DNA of 41,129 bases, taken from the NCBI GenBank assembly GCA_000310025.1, contig FN649737.1, positions 3,589,520 through 3,630,648 on the forward strand, in the 5' to 3' direction. Origin of the DNA: Ectocarpus siliculosus. Taxonomy: Eukaryota > Sar > Phaeophyceae > Ectocarpales > Ectocarpaceae. How positions within the stretch are numbered: the stretch's first letter is position 1; each line of letters starts with the position of its first letter. Below, one piece after another: positions 16,201 through 39,360 of the stretch. A model generated the notes under the pieces. It was not told the origin of the DNA and searched no databases. It worked only from the letters and a program-made list of their open reading frames with translations. Both the position numbers and the translations under genes were made by a program.

Positions 16201-19200
16201 GTGGAAAGCAGGCCTTAGCCAAGTTGAGTGTTGGTGGAAAGCAGGCCTTAGCCAAGTTGAGTGTTGGTGGAAAGCAGGCCTTAGCCAAGTTGAGTGTTGG
16301 TGGAAAGCGCCTCAATAGTCATGCGTCAAGGTGTAACGAACGTGTCGTGTCCCGATGACAAACGGCGACCGCATCTCCACTTGAAAATGACAGCAACATG
16401 TTCGCTTACTAGACGTTTTGCCCTACACCTGGAATGTTGTGCTCAGAGGACGTTTTGCATTAACGGGTACAACATGGACGACGACGCCGACGAAGTACAC
16501 GAAAACATCCGGGGATACGGCTCAAACATGGGTTCACTCATAATCCAGGTGAGCCAGGAGACAAATGCCCCATTCAAGGCGCTCGCCTCAGGCGTGGGCT
16601 CATCAGAGCATGGTATTAGTGTCTTCGAGACGTGGTGCAAGATGAAAGCAAATCAGATGCCATCAGCGCCGTTTCATCCAGAGCATAGTAGTAGTGTCAT
16701 CAAGGCGCGATGCAAGATCGAACGCAAAGCATGTGTTGGTGTGAATGAATCAGCTGCCAGCTGCCATCAGTGACGTTTCCCGAGCTCGACACAGCTCACA
16801 CACCTGACGTGTTGTTGACTGTAAGGGTCCAAAAGCCTCAACGATCCCAAGCATATTGTTTATTTTTCAAATCTGTATAATATATATTATACAGTCTTAC
16901 ACTGTTGTTANNNNNNNNNNNNNNNNNNNNNNNNNNNNNNNNNNNNNNNNNNNNNNNNNNNNNNNNNNNNNNNNNNNNNNNNNNNNNNNNNNNNNNNNNN
17001 NNNNNNNNNNTATCTTGTTTACAAATCTGTATAATGTACAGTCGTACATTGTTGTTGTCTTCACATTAGAAACCGGTCTCCGCATGGTACCTTCTAATGG
17101 CCCAACCATACAACCAAGAGAGACCAACCTTAGGTTACATGATGAAAGATACCAAACCCCGTGCACCGGGTTTCAAAGCTTGATTACTCCACGACGAAGA
17201 GGATGCCGAAATCAAATGATACGTTTTCGGAAATATCTCGACGAGAAAATTCCAACGTCGCCATTGTCGGCACCGTCACTGCTTCTCATACCGAGTAATG
17301 GAGCTGTTACAAGCGGTGCAGAGGATGTTACATCTTTTGCAACCTATGGTATTGCCCGTTCGAGATATTACCACGGTCGAAGGAGAAGGGTTCAAGTCTT
17401 TACAGTGAAGGGGGAAAAAGACACAGGTGATACTGGGCTTATTCTGAGTCTGTTTGAGCCTATACACTGGATTTTTGAAGCAGTGATGCCAGCTGGTGCT
17501 ATGCACGAAACAAAGCATTTTCCTGTGAACAGCTCCACAGGTTTCGGCGAGGGGCGGGTGTGTTCTCTTTTTGTTTCTCGTTTCGGACGAGAGTGTTAGT
17601 ATTGCCATCGATTCCACACCTGGACGTATACAGGGATGGGTTGGATGTCGGAGGGATCCGTGTTTTCGACGGGAAAAAAACACCGGCCGTCGCAGAGTTA
17701 TGACGTCACTCGCGAGATTCCTCGCCCAATTGGTGACATATTTAGTGTGGAGGAGTAGCGGGCGTGTCATATTCCTTGCTGAGTTGCGCAGATGCGGGTT
17801 GCTTGTGACCTGTTGGTCCATGATCGTGTAGGAGTGGAAGCGAACGAGGCATTGCCTTTTCAGGGAGCTAAAGGTGTAGGCCATGTCGGGGGCACCTCGC
17901 ATCTCAGGTGGTAGTCACACGGCTGCTCGCCGTGTTGTCGTGTATTCAGGCAGGTATTATAATAGGTGTTTTCCTACTTCCACGTCCCATTCTCGTAAAA
18001 GGTAAAGAAGTAGGTACCTCCCAGTCGTGCTCGCAGCACTCCATGCCGCAAATCCTCCGCCATATAGACTATATATGTATGTCGAACAGATTAAGAATTG
18101 ATGACGTTTCAATAAAATTGCCCAATATATTGTGTGGTTTGGAGCATCTCGTCCCTAGTGTCGAAACCGAGTTCGCAAAGTGTCGTTGGTGATTTTTGCA
18201 TGCATCCAATGTTGATTATATCCTCATCATCTTGGGAACGAGAGTCTCCGTTTAGAGATATCCCTGTTCTATTTTCTCTCCCGACTCCCCTTTTTCTGAA
18301 ATTATTGCTTTGTACATATCGTGCGTGATGCTGGTGCTGATGGTTTATGCGTCTCAAGCTCAACTCCGTTGTACAGTAGCCCATTTCCCCCGCATTTTAA
18401 CGGTTGTGAATGTTGCATTCGCAACCGGAGTTTGACATATCAGCCCTTCCCACCTTTGAAGGGGTGGTCAACGGCTACGACATGCGTTACAGGAGTATTC
18501 CCCCCCCCCCCCCCCCCGCCCCCGACTAATGCCGTCTCCACAACTACCAGGAGAAGCTGAAAGTCTTTTTTTTTGCTTCTCCCATCATTGGACGCTGTCG
18601 ACTGCCGCTGTGGCCCCCATCCTCCACTTCTACTAGCTAGACAACCCAATCGGGGTCACATAGGAGGGGGTAGACCCCTCCTGCGGTTCCTGTCTGAGAC
18701 GTTTTATCGCGAGAAGGGTACAGCAATCCCTTCCCTCGCGCCTTCTGAAGTCGATCTAGTTTTTTACTTACAACGAGCTTTGCAGCGCGTCGCTTCCAAC
18801 TTAGACCAGTATTTATTTAGTGAGAAAAACAACTCACTCTAACGGGACTCGAACCCATCACCTGGCCCTTAGCAGGCGGCGAGGGTACCCACTAGGCCAC
18901 CGGGGCGACCGGTTTGAGCCCTTCCCGGTGCCCGTTTGAAGTCTCAACTGACGCATCGCTACTTACCCGATGCATGCGTGGTGCCGACGCCTTTTCTTTC
19001 CCTTGATTGATGTACAGTTCGTGCTGCTTCTGATCCTGTTCGTGCGGCCCCTCCTGGTGCGCCTTGAAGGCTCCCAGTCTGGAGAGGCCATCTACCGGAG
19101 GGTGGTCATCAAAAACATAACGTGCACCATTGCGGTTGTCACCGCCTACGCGGTCACAACAGTGGTGGTGATCGCCGCTCTGCTTAGGCAGAACAACGAC

Positions 19201-24410: not shown

Positions 24411-24648
24411 TGTTGGAGTAATTGCGGTACAAGAACGACTCTATTCTACTGCATGGGTTTATGCGGTATTGTGAAGGCGTTGCCAAGTCTGTAACCGTCA
24501 GGTGAAGACAGCTTGGGCGTCTGTGTGGATAATAATATCACTCTGTGTGTTTGCCTACCTAACCTCGCATCACATGCCAGCTACTTTGTAGCCTCAGCTG
24601 AAGGAATAGCTGTACAGCAACTGCAGTGACAGTGCTGTTGCCTCAACA
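24411..24648 (+). repeat. 5' LTR
   Basis: TGTTGGAGTAATTGCGGTAC at the left end, GTGCTGTTGCCTCAACA at the right end. It differs from the 3' LTR at about 24474 (A for G) and in TAGCCTCAGC against TAGCCACAGC. Confidence 0.95.
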
Positions 24649-24662
24649 GGTTTATGAGCCTC
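24649..24662 (+). promoter_or_regulatory. probable primer binding site (half-tRNA type)
   Basis: Directly after the LTR comes GGTTTATGAGCC. TTATGAG is the complement of a methionine tRNA anticodon loop (CTCATAA) with stem bases on both sides. Drosophila copia uses an internal cleavage product of initiator Met tRNA in the same way. The usual complement of a tRNA 3' end (TGG...) is absent. Confidence 0.5.
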
Positions 24663-24706
24663 GAGTTGCTCGAGCTAGCACACCAGAGTCACAAGCGTCG
24701 GTAAGC

Positions 24707-27700
24707 ATGGCTACCGGCTCGTCAGGCGAGATCCGAAGAGGATTCGCCAAGTTCAGTGGCGACCCAGGCGACTACGTTGGCTGGCGAACTCTGCAGACCT
24801 CCTTATTCATGGAGGACAAGCTGCACAAGGTTCTGTTGGGAGTGGAGAAAGCCCCTACGGATCCTGGACCAAGCGCTACGCCAAACCAGACTTTGGCATA
24901 CCAAACTGCCCTGGAAGGATACCAGGACAAAAACGGACAGGTCTTTACCCGGCTGATGCTCGCCACATCTGAAACCGGGGGCTACCAGAGCGCGGCCTCG
25001 CAGACTGTGCAGGCATACGCGCCTATCGGGTCTTCCTACAACGGAGACGGTCGTGGAGCATTCCTCGCCCTAGAACGAAAGTACCAGGCCGCTGGGGTAT
25101 ACCGTACGCAGGAGGAGCTGCACGAGAAGTTCATATCTTTGGCAGTTACTGCGGACCACGACTTTGATCCGGCCAAAGTTATTCAAGACATGCGCCGGAT
25201 CTGCACGGAGCTAGCCGTGTATAACGACACGGTGGCTGACCACCGCAAGACGTTCGCTTTCCTGAAAACACTGCCGGACGACCACTACAAAGAGTTCAAG
25301 ACAGGACTGCTGTGCGGCCAGGCTGCTGGGAGCGTCTTGTCCTTCGAGGAGGTCGCCGACCGAGCCACTTCGTTCCACGCGATGCACATTCGTGGTAAAG
25401 TTGCCTCGAAGAACACGTCCGGAAGCAGCAGCCGTGCGCTGAATACCGTCACACACGGCGGAGCGCGTTCTTTCCGTAAGGGCGGCGGTCATCATGGTCG
25501 TGGACGCGCGCAGCGCGGTGGACGCGGACGTGGCAGCTGGAACAACTCGTCGAACCGTAACAACGGGTCGTCGAGGGGGAACAACAGCAACGACCAGAAC
25601 CATGGCGGCGCAACTTCTGGCAACGGAGCTGGTGGTGCGTCTTCCGACAACCGGTCCTCTGGACGGCCAAACCACTCACAGCAAAGACACGGGTACGACA
25701 GGGACGGCTTATGCAGTTACTGTCACAATTCTACGGAACACACCTGGACGAACTGCCCGCTTCGCGCCTCCAATGCCACGCGGTTTTCGAACCGTGAACA
25801 ACAGCAACCGCAGCAGCAGCAGCAGGTCAACACGACCGCGGAAGCCACGACACAGGCGTGGCTCACGCACGCGCGCGAGGTCGACCTCACGCTGGAATCG
25901 TTCGATATCGCCATAGGCGATCCAGAGCAGGTGCCGTTTGCGCCTGCTGCATCGACCCCTGAGGAGGCGTCCGATGTCAATGTAGGGCAGGTGTTGGCTG
26001 CGCCTGCCACAGCTTCGCTACCATTGTTGGAACGTGCTGTCCCATTGCAGGTGCCGATTGCGCCTGCCACAGCAAAGGAAACCGAGGAGCCTGCTGCCTC
26101 CTACGAGAAGGAAAAGGACCCGCCTGCCGCGATACAGCATGAGGAGCTGGTCGCGTACACCAACGTTTTTCGTGCAGTGGACAAGACAGCGCCCGCCGAG
26201 AATACGAGGGTGTTCATCGACACCGCCGCTTCGGGACACATGGTAAGCGGCGAGAGCCCAGTCTCACAACATGTAGTCGACTTGGTTGACTGCGACGTCC
26301 GCATCAAGGGTTCGTGCGGCACATCCAGCGCCACCAAGAAAGGTACGCTGAAGTTCAAACTCAAGAATGACAAAGGTCAACCCGTCCCGATAGAATTGGA
26401 GGTTCTGCTTGTGCGGGACCTTGGAGCAAACATATTTTCTGTCGGAGCGTTGGATGAGAAGGGGGTGAAGACGGATCTACTTTCGGCACCTCCGGCCCTG
26501 CGAAGCCGGAACCTGTCTTTCCCCATATCAACAGCAGAGGTGCCTCGAATGTACGTCGTGAATCTCATCCTGGACGACCTGAATCTCGACCTGCCTAGTT
26601 CTCCGCTGGTTTTCCGTGCCGATACCGATGCCGGTGTCTGGCACCGGAGGATGGGACATTGCAATGCGCGCGCCCTGAAGCAGCTCTCGGATAAGGAAGG
26701 CACCGGCATCAAGTTCATCACCAACATTCAACCAGGTGACTGCGAAGTGTGCGATGTATCTAAAAGCAAGAAGGCGAGTCACCCCCCGGTTGGCCGCGCC
26801 CGTTCACTGACGCGAATGATGCTTATGCATCTCGACCTGTGGGGGAAACATGGTGTGCCATCGTATAGCGGATGTCAGCATATCGCAATGTTCACCGACG
26901 ATAAATCTCGCATGCGGTGGGGCATTCCCCTGAAGACAAAGGATGAAGTGACTGACGCGCTCGAAACACTGATTAAAGAAGTCGCCGATCCCGAGGGCAT
27001 CTGCATCGGGAAAATCCATTGCGATGGCGCAGCCGACTTCAAGGGTAGGTTCTTACCAATGTGTCGGTCCTTCGGGATCGCTGTGGAGACAAGCCCCCCG
27101 TACGTCCCTCAAGGGAATGCTGTCGCCGAACGCGGTTTCGGGACCGTCATCGGTGCAGCACGTAGTCTCATGCTTGGAGCTCCGCACCTACCGCGTCAAC
27201 TGTGGGCGGAAGCCGCGAAGGCCGCCATTTACATCAAGAACCGCACACCTACTGACGTCCTGGACGGCAAAGCACCACTTGAGGTTTGGGAGGACAAACC
27301 ACTCGGCAGCTTGAAGCACATGTATGAGTGGGGGTCTGTAGCGTTTAAACACGTAGAAGCTCGCTCGCGAAACGATAAGTTTTCTGCCAGGGCCAAGAAG
27401 TATTACATGGTGGGATACAATACAACCAGCAAGACGTGGCGGCTATGGGACCCGGCGGAACCACTCAAAATTACAAACTCTGCTGAAGTGTCATTCCGCG
27501 AGGTAGATGCCCGCGACGTCGCTCGCCCCATGCACGGGTCTGACTCATTTCCCGAACAAGGCCAGATTTTCCAGCCCGGCATCATCACTACTGGGGCCGA
27601 GACAAAAGACGAGGAACCAGAACTGGCAGAAACGAACGACGGACCGGACGAAGAACCGCCCGCGGTGCGCAAAAGCGGTCGTACGACAAGGCCGCGGGAC

Positions 27701-29365
27701 CGTCTGAACCTGTTTACGACGGAGCAGGTGTTCGAAACGGAATACGCGCTGGTGATCGGAGGTGAGATTGGGAACCTTGGTCAAGGGATACCTGGCCAAC
27801 TAGGATACATGCCCGCCGATCCACCGAACTACCGCGCAGCGGTCAACGGACCAGATGCTGTTGGATGGATGAAAATCATGGAGGAGGAGAATCGCTCCTT
27901 GCTAGACCACGACGTTTATGAGTGGGTCGACCCCCCGTGCGATGGTCAAATCATCCCGTCAAAATACATCTACAAATGGAAGTACAACGAGGCCGGCATC
28001 GCTGTTCGACAGAAATCGAGAATCGTAGTGCAAGGATTTTACGAAGCTGAGACCGGAACCGACAATGCTGCACCGGTAGCGTCTCTCCAAGCCGTCCATC
28101 TGATAGTTGCGCATGCAGCCAAGAATGGACTTGTTCTTCGCCAAGCCGACATCAGGACGGCGTTCCTCCACGCGAGGATGGAACCGAGATCGAAACCAGT
28201 GTACGTCATTCCCCCGGAAGGATTCTCGTGCGACAGCGGGAGAGCCAGGCAAGTCTGGAAGCTCAGAGCATGGCTTTACGGGTTGCGTTTTTCCCCAAAA
28301 GGCTGGTGGGGCACTCTGCACGACTTTCTCCTGAAGATCGGATTTGTTGAGAGCACCGCTGAACCGTGCTTGTACATCCTGGACGACGGAGATGTGCTCC
28401 TTCTCGTTTATGTGGATGACATTCTGCTGACCGGGGAGGGCGAGAACAAAGTACTGAGCATAGTCGATCAGCTGAATGAGCGTTTCGAAACGGTGGACCT
28501 GGGAGGAGCCAGATTCCTACTCGGTATGGGAATCAACCGAGACAGAGCCGCAGGGACAATTCTTTTGGAACAGGAAGCGTATACCAACGCCGTGTTGGAC
28601 AAGTTCGGCATGGCCGACGCGCGTCCGACGACATCTCCGTCTGAGGCTGGACCGGTGTCCGTCTTGGAGGACGAGGTGCTGTCAGCGGAGGATACCACAT
28701 ATTTCCGCTCCGCCACAGGCTCGCTTCTATATCTCAGCAGGTGCACAAGGCCCGACATTACACACTCCGTGATGGTTCTGACGCGGAGTATGGCGAAACC
28801 AGGTCCGAGGGCGATGCAGAAACTCAAACGCGTACTCAGGTACCTGAAAGGTACGATATCAATCGGTGTACGCTACGGCGAGGACGCCGGAGATGGAAAC
28901 GTCATTACGGCGTTTGTCGACTCAGATTTTGCAGGCGACCTAGACAAGGGCTACTCCACCACGGGAGTCGTGTTGTACTTCGCTGGTGGACCGGTGGAAT
29001 GGACATCATCCAAGCAGACGGTGGTGGCGACCTCTTCCGTTGAAGCAGAGTTCGTGGCTTTGTCGAAGGGGTGCAACATCATCAAGTACTTCCGCCACCT
29101 GCTGGACACCATAAATCAGACTCAGGAAGAAGCAACCGTGGTGTGGGAGGACAACTCGGGAGCTCTAAAATTAACTCGCAGCTTCCGTATCACCCCAAGG
29201 ACGAAGCACATTGACGTAAAGTTTCACCACGTAAGGTCGCTGGTAGCTGATGGAGTCGTAGACGTGAAGCAAATATCGACGTCGCTTCAGAAAGCGGACA
29301 TTTTTACGAAAGGGCTAAACCCGTCGGAGTTTCTCCGCGCCCGTGGCATGCTGTTAGGAGTTTGA
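24707..29365 (+). CDS. Copia Gag-Pol polyprotein (1,552 aa, intact)
   Basis: The ATG at 24707 is the first in frame; the frame is open further upstream into the LTR but has no ATG there. Residues are numbered from this Met. The N-terminal Gag part (FAKFSGDPGDYVGW onward) is the Copia Gag type, followed by a Gly/Asn/Arg-rich stretch and a zinc knuckle CSYCHNSTEHTWTNC (336-350), whose C-H spacing is one residue longer than usual. Protease: DTAASGHM, Asp about 505. Integrase: zinc-binding WHRRMGH...CEVC (645-682), then Asp 710, Asp 773 and Glu 808 in a D-D-E core. Reverse transcriptase: QADIRTAFLH with Asp about 1148, and YVDD at 1235-1238. RNase H: VDSDFAGD (Asp 1405), EAEF (Glu 1448), WEDN (Asp 1482) and a RTKHIDVKFHHVR end. 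The product makes the virus-like particle, copies the RNA and integrates the DNA. No stop or frameshift separates gag from pol, so proteolysis or alternative RNAs must set their ratio. Confidence 0.96.
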   Translation: MATGSSGEIRRGFAKFSGDPGDYVGWRTLQTSLFMEDKLHKVLLGVEKAPTDPGPSATPNQTLAYQTALEGYQDKNGQVFTRLMLATSETGGYQSAASQTVQAYAPIGSSYNGDGRGAFLALERKYQAAGVYRTQEELHEKFISLAVTADHDFDPAKVIQDMRRICTELAVYNDTVADHRKTFAFLKTLPDDHYKEFKTGLLCGQAAGSVLSFEEVADRATSFHAMHIRGKVASKNTSGSSSRALNTVTHGGARSFRKGGGHHGRGRAQRGGRGRGSWNNSSNRNNGSSRGNNSNDQNHGGATSGNGAGGASSDNRSSGRPNHSQQRHGYDRDGLCSYCHNSTEHTWTNCPLRASNATRFSNREQQQPQQQQQVNTTAEATTQAWLTHAREVDLTLESFDIAIGDPEQVPFAPAASTPEEASDVNVGQVLAAPATASLPLLERAVPLQVPIAPATAKETEEPAASYEKEKDPPAAIQHEELVAYTNVFRAVDKTAPAENTRVFIDTAASGHMVSGESPVSQHVVDLVDCDVRIKGSCGTSSATKKGTLKFKLKNDKGQPVPIELEVLLVRDLGANIFSVGALDEKGVKTDLLSAPPALRSRNLSFPISTAEVPRMYVVNLILDDLNLDLPSSPLVFRADTDAGVWHRRMGHCNARALKQLSDKEGTGIKFITNIQPGDCEVCDVSKSKKASHPPVGRARSLTRMMLMHLDLWGKHGVPSYSGCQHIAMFTDDKSRMRWGIPLKTKDEVTDALETLIKEVADPEGICIGKIHCDGAADFKGRFLPMCRSFGIAVETSPPYVPQGNAVAERGFGTVIGAARSLMLGAPHLPRQLWAEAAKAAIYIKNRTPTDVLDGKAPLEVWEDKPLGSLKHMYEWGSVAFKHVEARSRNDKFSARAKKYYMVGYNTTSKTWRLWDPAEPLKITNSAEVSFREVDARDVARPMHGSDSFPEQGQIFQPGIITTGAETKDEEPELAETNDGPDEEPPAVRKSGRTTRPRDRLNLFTTEQVFETEYALVIGGEIGNLGQGIPGQLGYMPADPPNYRAAVNGPDAVGWMKIMEEENRSLLDHDVYEWVDPPCDGQIIPSKYIYKWKYNEAGIAVRQKSRIVVQGFYEAETGTDNAAPVASLQAVHLIVAHAAKNGLVLRQADIRTAFLHARMEPRSKPVYVIPPEGFSCDSGRARQVWKLRAWLYGLRFSPKGWWGTLHDFLLKIGFVESTAEPCLYILDDGDVLLLVYVDDILLTGEGENKVLSIVDQLNERFETVDLGGARFLLGMGINRDRAAGTILLEQEAYTNAVLDKFGMADARPTTSPSEAGPVSVLEDEVLSAEDTTYFRSATGSLLYLSRCTRPDITHSVMVLTRSMAKPGPRAMQKLKRVLRYLKGTISIGVRYGEDAGDGNVITAFVDSDFAGDLDKGYSTTGVVLYFAGGPVEWTSSKQTVVATSSVEAEFVALSKGCNIIKYFRHLLDTINQTQEEATVVWEDNSGALKLTRSFRITPRTKHIDVKFHHVRSLVADGVVDVKQISTSLQKADIFTKGLNPSEFLRARGMLLGV

Positions 29366-33080: not shown

Positions 33081-33245
33081 CCCATGTTTGTTTATGGTTT
33101 CCAAATCTTTATCTTCTTTTCTTTGGACAAATGTTGACTTTTTCGACCTTCTGGGCAGTCTGCCTCCCGAACGAATGCGAATCAGCTGTTGTTCGACCTT
33201 TGAGAATAGTCACAGCTTTGGCTGAGATGTCTACAGATCGCCTAC

Positions 33246-33462
33246 CCGTAGGTTGCATAAGATATCACACCCCCTGGACCAATATTGAAAGCTCGGTATC
33301 TCGGCAGGAAAAACAATGACTGTACCGAAAATGGCTGCGTTAGAACCGTCTCGTCGAGAGCTTTCCGAAAACTCTTTTTTCAGTATCGGTATCCTCTTCG
33401 TCGTGGAGTAATCGAGCCTTGTAAATCGGTCCAGGGGGTGTGATATCTTATGCAACCTACGG
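33246..33462. mobile_element. inverted-repeat element family E, best-preserved copy
   Basis: Terminal arms of about 50 bp. The left starts CCGTAGGTTGCATAAGATAT and runs through CACACCCCCTGGACC; the right ends with its complement (CTTATGCAACCTACGG). The interior keeps CGTCTCGTCGAGAGCTTTCC and TCGTCGTGGAGTAATCGAGC, shared with the other copies. At 217 bp it fits a MITE. Confidence 0.8.
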
Positions 33463-33467
33463 TATAT

Positions 33468-33660
33468 GTTTCGCCAGGGCCCACGTTTGATTTTTGCAAG
33501 ATGCGCAATTTTCACGCAAGATTTTTCCAACACCACCAGCTTTTTTTTTTGGACAGACAGATCTTGGCCCAAGATTTGCTCCGAGGTGTGGTCTTTCGGC
33601 CGAATCTTGCACATACATCTTGCTCTGCTGGAAAAATCCAAACGTGGTCCCTGGCGAAAC
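33468..33660. mobile_element. inverted-repeat element family F (MITE-like, 193 bp)
   Basis: Starts GTTTCGCCAGGGCCCACGTT and ends with the complement (AACGTGGTCCCTGGCGAAAC), with one mismatch in the first 20 bases. The complementarity extends about 30 bases inward. It sits 5 bases after the family E copy, within the same foldback loop. No other copy was seen in the window. Confidence 0.78.
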
Positions 33661-33831
33661 AAATAGGCGGCCTGTAACATCTCAGGCAAAGCTGTGACTA
33701 TTCTCAAAGGTCGAACAGCTGATTCGCATTCGTTCGGGAGGCAGACTGCCCAAAAGGTCGAAAAAGTCAGCATTTGTCCAAAGCAAGTAAGATAAAGATT
33801 TGGAAAACAATAAACATGGGTCGTAGGGTTC

Positions 33832-33939
33832 GGGCGCGAATATTTGCAATCCATGGATTATAGAAGAGAACCACAGTCCAAACATCCAGACGGATCGAAA
33901 CCCCGGGAAACCGCCCGGAGTGTCCCCGAAGAGGTTCTT
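33832..33939 (+). repeat. MULE left terminal inverted repeat
   Basis: Contains GAAACCCCGGGAAACCGCCC and GGAGTGTCCCCGAAGAGGTT. It differs from the right arm at one base after ATGGATTATA and one in CCAGACGG (CCGGACGG on the right). Transposase binding and probably the element promoter are expected here. Confidence 0.92.
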
Positions 33940-35058
33940 CTCCCTCTCCTATAAAAGCAGCGATAATCACGGCGGCGGAGAGCCGTCTGAAGGCGGCGAC
34001 ACGCACCCGCACGCTGGGGGAAGACGAGGAGACAACACACAACGATAACTGGTGAGATCCCGTCCCGACAGGCGTCCGTGCATCCTCTGTGTCTGTGCCT
34101 CACCCTCACCCTCTCTGTGATGTTTTTTTTGGAAATAAAATAGCAACGGCCGCACCCGCACCAGCGCCATGTGTGTGTTGGTCTGTCTCCTGTGTTGCAG
34201 CCTCCCTCATGCTGTCCCACGTGTCGATGCTGCTCTGTACCTGTTGTTGCCGTCGTACGTACGTTGGTGATCATGTGCCTGCACTGGTGTGGTCAGGCCA
34301 GGCCAGGCCCTGCCTGTTGTCCTTGCCGTATAGTCCGGAGTCTTTTCTTCTGGCTGCTCGGCTGTATGGTGGTGCTACAGCAGTGCTGGGCTGGTAGAGG
34401 TGCAGGCATTGTGCACGCACTTGCCCAACCCCTTAACTTCATGTGTCTACCCTCCATGTTCGCGTCGTGGGACCCGTGGCCTGCCGTGCGGTAGTGTCAT
34501 TGCTAGGAATGCTTCCATCCAGTGCTGCTCTGTCGGCCTCTTACGGTGCTCGTCATGCTGGCGCTGCGGGAGCCTTTGCGGGCTACCCTGTACAAGCCCA
34601 CCCCGTACAGCAACAACAGCAGCAGATATTGACCACCAGCCCTCCGCCGGAAACGCAGGCGAGACGGGTTGATGTTTGACAAGTGCGGTTCGACGTGACA
34701 CCGGCAATGTTTGTTCCGTGGGTGTAGCACGCCAGTGGATTGTCGCTGCTGTGCTGTACCTCGTGCCTTTCAACGCGTGCACGTTCGGTTCGCTGTTTTC
34801 GTGTACTCAGCGGTGGACGGCGAAACGTTTCATTTGTCTTGTCTTGTGAATCAAATATGGGGCAAGGAAGATTGAACTCGTTGGAGTAGGTCTACAGTGG
34901 CTCCCGTCGTATCCCACGGTTTGTCATGGTTGGTAGTCATGATGCCGCATGACGAACGGCCCTTGAAGCGTGGTACTGCTGTCGCCTCCACATTGTTACC
35001 CTGTTTGTCTGTGACACGCCACTTATTTTTGTGCTCCCGGCTCTCCCATACGGCGCAG
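33940..35058 (+). other. MULE 5' subterminal region; transposase N-terminal exons unresolved
   Basis: This must hold the start of the transposase, because the first certain exon (35059) begins inside a codon. Candidates are an acceptor at about 34200 (CTGTGTTGCAG) and a Gln/Ala/Pro-rich open stretch from the ATG at 34510 to about 34667. The latter frame does not join the 35059 exon in phase, although an overlapping frame does. I could not choose. Confidence 0.4.
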
Positions 35059-38000
35059 GTCATGGGATGAAGCCAAAAGAGGTGACGAAAGCAATGAAGG
35101 CGTTGCACGAGGACAGCGACATCGACATCAACAAGCGCGCGGTGCAGAACGCAGCTGCCATTGTGCACGGGGCGGAGAAGCCGAGAGATGCTGCCGATGC
35201 GTACGAAGAGGTGTGTCCATGTGTCCGTTGAGACTGTTGCCTCTCTTGTTTGTGTGTGGGATGCTTGGGTTTTGCTCAAGGCGGTATCCGGGCGACAAGA
35301 CACATACGATCGCAGGTGACAACCGGGAGAATATATGCCCCATGACACCAAACCAAGAAATGTTGGAGGTAAAAAATGTGTGCCGTGCCGTCGTCGTGGT
35401 TTTGCGCTGATGCCCTCGATGTTTCCGGGCGCTTAACATGTTGCAATTTCAGGTCATGGCCGCGACGGCCGACGGCGGAGTGTGCGAGATCAAGATGGAT
35501 GACAGCGGCCGCCTGACGCACATCTGGTGGCAAACGAGAGAGCAGGTAGGTCGCCGGTCGTTGTGCCCCATACGAATATTCCCCAGCCGGAAGGTTTGCT
35601 TTCATTTTAGCATCTCGCACGTACCGCTTCGCCGTCCGCAAATGTAGGACGTCTGACCGAAAGCACGCCGTAGGCAAGGGTGGGGGTGCGTTGTGACGCG
35701 TCCAACACACGTCACACCCACAATTAAGTGCTCTCGATCCCCTTCGACGTCATGCTCCGAATACGCAGGTGGCGCTTTGGAATCGGTACGGTCACGTTGC
35801 GCTCTACGACGACACCGCTGTCAAGAACAGATACCGTATGCCTCTCGGTGTGCTCGCTGTCGTCGATTCGGAGTATCGGACGCGGATCGTCGGCCAAAGC
35901 ATAACGGCCGACACCACAACGGACACTTTCCTGTGGATGTTGAAGAGTGCGTTGGAGTCTCGCGGGAAGCAGCCGGATACCTTCATCCAGGACGCGGACG
36001 CGGCGATGACGGCGGCGGTGCGAGAGGTGTTCCCGGACGCGCTGGCGAGGCGCAATTTATGGCACCTCAACCAGAACGTTATCAAGGCCCTCGCTAAAGT
36101 CCTTGGTGGGTACATGAAGGTGCGCTCTACTGTGTGTGTTGGCGTGGTTAGTCTGGCCTCTCGTATTGTCCTGGTCGCGCGACGTACGCTGCCCACTCTA
36201 GCCCCCCTCCCCCACTCCCGCTTGTATCCCCTGTGCGAGTTGGTGCGTTGTCATGGATCAGTGTCGCCTACTTGGAAGAGTGATATCCAGCGTCTCTGCG
36301 TAGACCGTGATGCGGAGACGACCTCGGCTTCGACGGAAACATACCTCACGACGTCCAGTGCACACAGAAAAAGCAGCAGCAGCAGCAGCAGGTTGTAAGC
36401 ACCAATGGTATGTCGCTGAGTTTTTTCAACCCTCTCCTCGTCTCGCCTTAGCGCTAACGAAGTGTACGGGGTTGTTGGTGGCAGTCAATCGTACAGACCG
36501 GTAGCCCATATCGCAAAGGCCCCAACTCACGCAACACCCACCCGGCCCACGTCGTTTGTGTTTTCCGCAGCCTTTCATGGACGAGTTCAGGTGTGTGCGT
36601 CAGCAGCTGTCATTGGCGAAGTTCGAACGGAAGTTCAACGCCCTCATCGAAAAGTACCCGAAGGCGGAGAAGTACATGCCAAGTAGTATATGACGACCGT
36701 GCACGGTGGGCGGAATATGTGTCGCCCCTGGTGTTCTCCGTGGGTTCGTGGACGACATCAAGAGTTGAAGGTGCGTGTATGCGTCATCTGCCATCATGAG
36801 CGTTTTGTTCGAGAACGACAGCGCATATAGCGTTGTCGTTGTTTTTGGGAGTTTTTCTACATCTGTAGGGGTTGGGGGCGGCTATCTTCCTTGCCCCCTA
36901 TTTACTATGCCATTGGTGAGTGCTTCTGGACGAATTTATCGTACGCCGTCAGTGGATGACCAGTAAACAACTCCCTACATGACGCTAATGTTTACGACCT
37001 CTTCGAAACATGTGGCTGTTGTCCGGCCCCTGTTGTTCGGGATTGATGTACTTGGTCGGTGCACTGCGATCGTCCGGCTCACGTGTACATACATCTGTGG
37101 CGATGGGTGCGTCAAGTCATAGGCTTCTCTTTCAGTCGTTTGGCGTACTGCGACTTCAACGATGTCTGATGACACCAATCACTAACCTACGGTTTGGTTT
37201 GTGTGTCGCTTCTTGCGTGTTTGTCCGCCGCACACACAACAGGCCAAAACGCCCTCATCAGGGATAGGTGCAACTCGCGCTCCTCGCTTTTGGACGTGGC
37301 GAAGTACTTTTCGGGCATCATCTGTTCCCAGAAGGATGCCGCCATGCTGCGTGACGCAATCGACCATCTGCCGCCTAATCGGATGGCGGCTCCACCAGCG
37401 ACCGCTTTCAAGAGTGTGCTCGAGTCCTGCGAGTTCTCCATCGCGGGCTGGCCGCGGCGGTTCATGGAGCAAGAGATGACCGCGGCCATCACGTTTTGCC
37501 AGATGGGTGGTGGGGAGGTGGATGGACCAGAACGCGCGGCAGCTTCGGGGCGCACGTTCGAGTACATCGAGGACAAGCTTTGCGACGCCATTTACGTCTT
37601 CGGGATTCACGAGCAGCGTGATGACAAGGCCTTCGACTACCTCGTCTTGCTCTTTTCCGACGGTAGCCATCTCTGCCAGTGCCGCACACTCCAAACTCTC
37701 AGGCTATTTTGTCGCCATGTGTGGGCGGCGATGATGTACAGCCCCCGATTCAGATTCCACGTAGGCCTCCTGCACGAGCACTGGCTGACGGAAAAGGCGA
37801 GGGGAACACCGCAGCAGGACTGGCCGGATGTCGCCCGCCCTCGGTGGGTGGTATCCAACCGCCACGCTGCGAGAGAAGTGGACGGGGCGGCGGGAGAGGG
37901 AGAGGGAGAGGGGGTGGGGGGATGCAGCGGGAGGTGGAAGTCTTTCGTTGGGAGCAGCCAGACGGTGCAGACGGTCCTGTTGGACTTGAAGGAGAAGGGG

Positions 38001-38315
38001 CCCACGGACCAGGATAGACAAGTGTTGTACGCCGACGTAACGAAGAAGCTCGGGCAAGCCGCGAGTATTTTGTCTGATCGCTTTTCACCGACAGTCGCCG
38101 TAGCCCTCGTGGACCAATTTCTGACGATGGTCAATGTGCAAGCAGGCGGGGTAGGAACTACAACGACGGGAGGGCGGGGGGCGGCTCTCTTCATGGCCAA
38201 CCCTGGAACTGTTCGCCTGCCCGCTAGGACAAGTAATAAAAGACGACCTGGCGCTGCAGAAAGATACACAAGAGGGGGTAGCAAGAGAGCCGCGACTTCG
38301 GGGTCCCAACTCTAG
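35059..38315 (+). CDS. MULE-family transposase with SWIM zinc finger (5' end unresolved, one apparent frameshift)
   Basis: Exons that join in phase are 35059-35212, 35281-35368 (less sure), 35453-35545, 35769-36119, 36571-36770 and 37243-38315 (stop TAG). The MULE core reads HVALYDDTAVKNRYRMPLG, with the first catalytic Asp, then FIQDADAAM, with the second, followed by LWHLNQNV; the usual Cys before WH is Asn here. A Phe-Glu in SLAKFERKF may supply the third acidic residue, but I am not certain. After TTSRVEG come QNALIRDR and an alpha-helical region, then a SWIM finger C-x-C...CRH (HLCQCRTLQTLRLFCRH) near 37670-37720, a Gly/Glu-rich linker and a basic Arg/Lys-rich end. In exon 36571-36770 the frame must shift by one base at about 36679; otherwise a TGA at 36691 ends it. 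The enzyme would cut and join the element ends in the nucleus. The frameshift may be a real lesion or a base-call error. Confidence 0.85.
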
Positions 38316-39243
38316 TTTCGGTGTTGCATACTTTGGGGTACGTGAGTAGCGGTACGCGGCCCTAGGTTTACGACGTCACCGGGGCATATGCCTGAACGAT
38401 GTTTTGTCCCCCCCCGGCGGCAGGTCAAGGCTCGGTGTGTTGTTTATTTTTCGCTTCGGCGTTTTTGCGCCCGATCGCCGTCTGTGATGTTGTCGATTTT
38501 GTGTTTGTATGTCTATTTGGTTGTTGCGGTGTAGCGTTCGATGGGGCCATCTGGTTCCTGTCCTGTTTTTATTTCTTTTGTTCCATTTCCTTTTCTTTTC
38601 TTTCTTCCGCCCCCTTTTTTGCCGTGTTGGGGTCATATCCAGGTCCTTTCATTTTTTTGGTGGGGGTCAGTCTATCATCAAATCGCTGTTGGATATTGAT
38701 TGTTCTGTTTTGTTTTTTTCTGCGTCTATCTGTGCTTGTCGACCTGTGTGCTCTGCGAAGAAAACCGTGTGAGCCGCGTCTCGAGTTTGTTGAGCGGGCC
38801 TGCGGTGTGCGAACTAAACGATGCCTACAGATTTTGACGGCCTCCATGATGACTGACATCCATCACGGCAGCACCGTGCAGCAGGTTATATCTACCAAAA
38901 AAAGAATACTGCTGTATGTAGTTCACAAAATCTACAGCAACAATTGCTTGCAGCAGCAGAAACGCACAACAACAGCAGCACCACACGCGGATAGACACAC
39001 ACACAGAGAGAGACGAGCACTCCTCTAAGTACGGGGCGTTGTGTGTCGTCGTGTCCTCCTGTTCCTCTGAGGCCTAGCGTCTCCTGGGCATCCCGGGTGC
39101 GAAGGGTGGCCTTGGCGTGAAATATGTGCCAGTATGGCAGTATGGACTGTTGAGGCTGTTGCTGCAGACGAGAGCTCTGCTTCCGAAGACAACGGGCGTT
39201 AGATCCAGGCTCCGAGATAATATTGAATTTGAGAGGGAGAGAG
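38316..39243 (+). other. MULE 3' subterminal region, no gene recognised
   Basis: T-rich on the plus strand at 38400-38740, giving hydrophobic open frames by composition. An AC repeat occurs at 38995-39004 and CAGCAG/CAACAA triplets at 38930-38985. No second element gene is seen. Confidence 0.55.
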
Positions 39244-39351
39244 GAGAACCTCTTCGGGGACACTCCGGGCGGTTTCCCGGGGTTTCGATCCGTCCGGATG
39301 TTTGGACTGTGGTTCTCTTTTATAATCCATGGATTGCAAATATTCGCGCCC
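39244..39351 (-). repeat. MULE right terminal inverted repeat
   Basis: AACCTCTTCGGGGACACTCC through GGATTGCAAATATTCGCGCC, the inverted match of the left arm, ending exactly at 39351 before GTAGGGTTC. Confidence 0.92.
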
Positions 39352-39360
39352 GTAGGGTTC

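Follow-up and report, generated by a model that had tools for sequence, protein, structure and literature searches.

A Mutator-like element with both ends intact

The window analysed here is a stretch of 41,129 nucleotides from Ectocarpus siliculosus (contig FN649737.1 of assembly GCA_000310025.1, positions 3,589,520 to 3,630,648). It contains a Mutator-like element (MULE) of 5520 bp at 33832-39351, a cut-and-paste DNA transposon of the Mutator type with both ends intact and an internal deletion (Table 1). An earlier note, made from the letters of the window alone, had described a complete MULE fixed to the base by inverted ends and an exact 9-bp target-site duplication. The delimitation holds in full: the inverted arms are flanked on both sides by exact copies of GTAGGGTTC, and this 9-mer is confined to the two flanking sites when both strands of the whole window are searched. 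The arms are identical at 111 of the first 115 positions in an ungapped alignment and reach 117 bp with one 4-base gap; a second alignment spans 116 nt at 97% identity. The inverted repeat of ~108 bp given in the earlier note is therefore present but slightly longer than stated. A TATAAAA motif just inside the left repeat is a possible promoter of the transposase gene, judged from sequence; the opposite strand carries the motif too, within the right repeat at 39318-39324.

The transposase domain places the family among the MULEs. PF10551 (MULE) scores 52.4 bits in the window exon and 48.3 bits in the spliced protein of a sister copy (cut-off 27.6), and Transposase_mut (PF00872) scores 26.2 bits (cut-off 21). 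The SWIM finger that the earlier note reported alongside the transposase is visible as a CxC...CxH pattern, and its profile PF04434 stays below the cut-off of 19.6 with 13.6-15.4 bits. Long inverted ends are usual in MULEs, though not universal, and many MULEs, not all, carry SWIM. The ends of 115-117 bp are long inverted repeats, and the 9-bp duplication lies inside the 8-11-bp range given for MULEs in passages of PMC6446971. The window copy lacks three features: an unbroken transposase gene, a FAR1 domain, and the C/DxxH motif, which characterises MuDR transposases according to passages of PMC3706591. A search of solved structures gave no match at E values up to 10, and of three pattern matches to the transposase core in viral contigs none was upheld by tblastn.

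Completeness is the part of the earlier description that fails. Compared with sister copies of about 6.05 kb (the 6.05-kb group, to which the window copy belongs), 534 bp are missing. The lost stretch lies between two direct repeats of 136 bp that are 96% alike in a full-length sister, L040, and it includes the place of exon 1. In addition, an extra base in exon 9 shifts the frame and leads to a stop after residue 255, ahead of the glutamate of TTSRVEGQN that we take, from the MULE family, to be catalytic. The exons of FAR1 are also absent. A first gene model with 11 extra residues at exon 6 was dropped, as the sister has a stop there.

Every other copy readable at this position lacks the extra base (the sequence is N in L032 and L043). 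Private one-base insertions are common among the copies, so it could be a fault of the assembly. The deletion can hardly be explained in this way. Among the copies read it occurs in the window and in L032 (G000:C1:2911500-2920316) only, with the same junction interval, so the deleted form was probably mobile, gene conversion being possible as well. All six substitutions that separate L032 from the window copy are G>A on the element strand and fall within 512 bp. It is highly improbable that the window holds a complete autonomous MULE whose deletion and frameshift are both assembly errors: the frequency of single-base insertions could account for the frameshift alone, whereas the deletion is common to two copies, the FAR1 exons are absent from the group copies read, and exon 1 falls within the deleted stretch. 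The window copy probably carries its transposase gene as a passenger. The element, which the earlier note offered as a reference for finding non-autonomous relatives, is best read as one of those relatives itself.

Table 1 Features of the element and its flanks, in window coordinates
Feature	Position	Strand	Basis
Left target-site duplication, GTAGGGTTC	33823..33831	.	Sequence comparison of both flanks
Left terminal inverted repeat, starts GGGCGCGAATATTTGCAATCC	33832..33946	+	111/115 identical to right end; tip found 67 times genome-wide
TATAAAA, possible promoter of transposase gene	33950..33956	+	Just inside left repeat; sequence only
Junction interval of 534-bp internal deletion	34757..34785	+	Comparison with 6.05-kb sisters; same interval in L032
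First coding exon left, starts ATG AAG CCA; exon 5 of FAR1-bearing sister	35067..35214	+	Splice sites kept in sisters
Exon 6	35316..35368	+	Gene model from sister comparison
Exon 7	35453..35545	+	Gene model from sister comparison
Exon 8, MULE transposase (RNase H-like) domain; NLWH, CLWH in FAR1-bearing sisters	35769..36119	+	PF10551, 52.4 bits
Exon 9, likely catalytic E in TTSRVEGQN	36571..36770	+	Gene model from sister comparison
Extra base, frameshift, stop after residue 255	~36679	+	Alignment with sister copies
Exon 10, C-terminal part	37243..38315	+	Open reading frame and sister comparison
SWIM-like finger, CQC...FCRH	37674..37718	+	Pattern in sequence; PF04434 below cut-off
Right terminal inverted repeat	39237..39351	-	Inverted match to left arm; genome tip search
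Right target-site duplication, GTAGGGTTC	39352..39360	.	Sequence comparison of both flanks

Copies and age of the family

We searched the genome (189.5 Mb in 492 contigs) with the 30-nt tip of the element. This gave 67 matches at up to three mismatches, and none for a reversed-pattern control. Sorted by hand, the matches make up 40 loci. The 6.05-kb group accounts for 25 two-ended ones, the window included; the rest are one two-ended locus of 6880 bp (L071), two short loci and 12 with one recognised end. Sixteen of the 25 group loci, the window among them, were fetched whole (L043 with 1953 N); the other nine are assigned by length and MULE-domain score only, and in C43 the domain match is partial. 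Apart from the window copy, 22 loci of the group measure 6048-6071 bp, L037 measures 5913 bp and L043 5930 bp.

Exact 9-bp duplications flank 23 of the 27 two-ended loci examined, every 9-mer being different, and none appear among 702 mismatched pairings of left and right flanks. The 607-bp locus L022 adds one more, which makes 24 of 28 two-ended loci in total. Other loci with these ends and different 9-bp flanks are what the earlier note had named as support for recent mobility, and the counts bear this out strongly. The duplication is missed in L035, where a second partial end adjoins, in L038, where there is none, in L045, which has one extra base, and at C18:4491964, where it is imperfect. 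In L035 (201-6334) a 77-bp partial end stands directly before the full element, and the left outer flank reappears, reverse-complemented, at the start of the right flank, as in an aberrant or nested insertion. The two short loci are miniatures of 196 bp (L033:401-596) and 607 bp (L022:1501-2107) with exact 9-bp duplications, which may have originated before or after insertion.

Among 15 copies (105 pairs; L043 excluded for its N) the mean substitution divergence is 0.16% and the highest pair reaches 0.42%. The mean is an upper figure, since some of the differences are misalignment beside indels. The copies stem from a recent burst. They also contain 59 private inserted bases, 23 of these in L034, and two deletions.

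A search for an empty site with the joined flanks of the window element scored 40 of 91 candidates. The two flanks were matched only separately, the right one at its own locus alone. The left flank adjoins a foldback-like repeat of ~740 bp with nested inverted arms (33081-33821). Its right arm recurs at 38 other places at 90-96% identity, again with 40 of 91 candidates scored, and ends approximately where the MULE duplication begins. Weaker PF10551 matches elsewhere in the genome (G000:C28:71254, C27:4267271, C24:354948 and six partial ones) are perhaps other MULE-like or ZSWIM genes.

FAR1-bearing copies and the FAR1-less group

The 6880-bp copy L071 represents a second type. It has ~1163 bp where the 6.05-kb type has ~320 bp; the ends of the two types are 95.7-96.6% identical and the bodies ~95%. 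The extra stretch holds three coding exons (2-4) in frame with the rest of the gene, and the spliced protein scores 28.8 bits for the DNA-binding domain FAR1 (cut-off 28.1), 56.1 for MULE and 15.4 for SWIM (cut-off 19.6). The FAR1 stretch is found at four places in the genome (all four candidates scored); the two-ended loci of the 6.05-kb group number 25. One of the four, L074, has an unbroken frame of 847 residues, with the copy next to the donor used as exon 1. The two types match in splice sites and exon lengths, the exceptions being a single codon in exon 8 and indels in exon 10. Ratios of nonsynonymous to synonymous substitution rates (dN/dS) are 0.20-0.34 over the 487-488 codons that the types have in common and 0.25 over the 151 codons of the FAR1 exons. 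This agreement, together with the dN/dS values, supports the gene model.

The copies of the 6.05-kb group that were read are all without FAR1 exons 2-4, and the donor GT of exon 1 is lost in the three copies aligned there (L035, L037, L044). In the CxxH motif, N replaces C in 19 of 19 readable copies of the group (NLWH in the window; a 20th row has no sequence there), compared with CLWH in all four FAR1-bearing copies. In an unrooted three-way comparison, the branch to the group carries 17 synonymous changes (P = 2.4e-5 for a count this high) and 12 nonsynonymous ones. Within the group the counts are 28 nonsynonymous and 10 synonymous (Fisher p = 0.012 against the branch), and after removal of 19 rows that are clustered or beside indels the counts are 15 and 4 (Fisher p = 0.017). 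Constraint on the transposase core is evident before the burst and not detectable since, as is expected of passengers.

Source of the transposase and comparison with known systems

These results are likely to describe a non-autonomous MULE family that was amplified with transposase borrowed from rare FAR1-bearing relatives. By analogy with the MULE family, transposase from FAR1-bearing copies would bind the inverted ends, excise the element and insert it at a 9-bp staggered cut. Since the ends are common to both types, one enzyme could serve all. The 6.05-kb group would have spread in trans in this manner, and later deletions would have produced the subtype of the window and L032 and the miniatures of 607 and 196 bp.

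Alternatively, the 6.05-kb group could be autonomous, with a 638-residue protein of MULE core and SWIM-like finger that binds the ends by a part other than FAR1; only the window copy and other broken-frame copies would then depend on protein supplied by intact ones. The 638-residue frame is indeed unbroken in 4 of the 17 copies in which all six exons are readable, this group is the one that amplified, purifying selection acted on the branch leading to it, and FAR1-bearing copies are few. We regard an autonomous group as unlikely: every readable copy has the C-to-N change, no constraint is detectable since the burst, the DNA-binding exons are gone, and so is the exon-1 donor in the aligned copies. 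A role of its own for the FAR1-less protein, either moving elements without the usual N-terminal DNA-binding domain or competing, as a shortened transposase, with the full enzyme and limiting it, so that the family would carry its own brake as it spreads, is more doubtful still.

Several observations weigh against transposase borrowed from FAR1-bearing copies, the unbroken 638-residue frames among them. The FAR1 score barely exceeds its cut-off. The three-way comparison is unrooted, and it is by inference that FAR1 was lost from one type rather than gained by the other. A FAR1-bearing gene free of breaks was not found together with both ends intact in any of L071-L074: in L071 the frame shifts late in exon 10; L072, with its first 1272 bases N and a right end only, is readable from exon 2 on and has a stop near its end; L073 is truncated, with one end only, and shifted in exon 8; and the ends of L074 were not found in the 7.4 kb fetched. 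Finally, the single-base insertions look partly like assembly error, which could exaggerate both the number of broken frames and the nonsynonymous counts.

That no FAR1-bearing copy was found in which the gene is unbroken and both ends are in place would also be expected if the family is dead, that is, if all copies are relics and this strain has no helper at present. Such a state is compatible with past spread on borrowed transposase. We consider it rather unlikely: the mean divergence of 0.16% and the perfect duplications point to recent movement, the frame of L074 is unbroken, and N stretches may conceal further copies.

Elsewhere in the window, an uninterrupted frame of 1579 residues at 24626-29365 has the look of a Copia-type polyprotein, recognised by eye, and a short run of N at ~16900-17010, within a listed open reading frame, is likely an assembly gap. 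No RNA family reaches its gathering score in the window.

The analysis provides a base-precise anatomy of a brown-algal MULE family, in which forms with common ends run from the FAR1-bearing type through 6.05 kb, 5.5 kb and 607 bp to 196 bp. This graded series makes it testable whether a MULE transposase needs its FAR1 domain for movement and whether a FAR1-less form can spread. It also calls for caution, as copies with perfect ends and duplications may be scored as intact or autonomous even when a needed domain is absent.

In the MuDR/Mu system of maize, a master element mobilises internally deleted derivatives in trans. The present family is like it in its long inverted ends and 9-bp duplications (PMC2774946), and unlike it in that the deleted majority keeps most of the transposase gene and misses the N-terminal DNA-binding domain. 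Two MULE groups, as described in passages of PMC6446971, resemble the family in part. Group 36 (Jittery, a plant sub-group) has N-terminal FAR1, SWIM or CCHC, and the order FAR1-MULE-SWIM recurs in the sister type described here, whose finger is SWIM-like. Group 37 (MULE-Diatoms), from stramenopiles, has ends of 123-124 bp and SWIM; going by its description, it is similar in end length and, given the SWIM-like finger here, in SWIM, and differs in that neither duplications nor FAR1 are listed for it.

Within the genus, the transposable-element library of Ectocarpus sp. 7 (Dinatale et al. 2025, PMC12477816, Table 1) lists one DNA/MuDR family with 56 copies, 42 of them intact, covering 0.13% of 200.2 Mb. 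Neither a FAR1-less majority nor helper dependence of this family is mentioned in its main text, as covered by a term search, or in two of its sections. Nor is the arrangement described in the titles and abstract openings of the other papers found on Ectocarpus MuDR or on FAR1-lacking Mutator derivatives, or in passages of PMC3627910 and PMC3706591. Our 40 loci with ends, of which the 25 two-ended copies of 5.5-6.1 kb make up ~0.08% of 189.5 Mb, are of the same order as the tabulated figures. The listed MuDR family is probably the one described here, a match made by copy number and genome share rather than by sequence.

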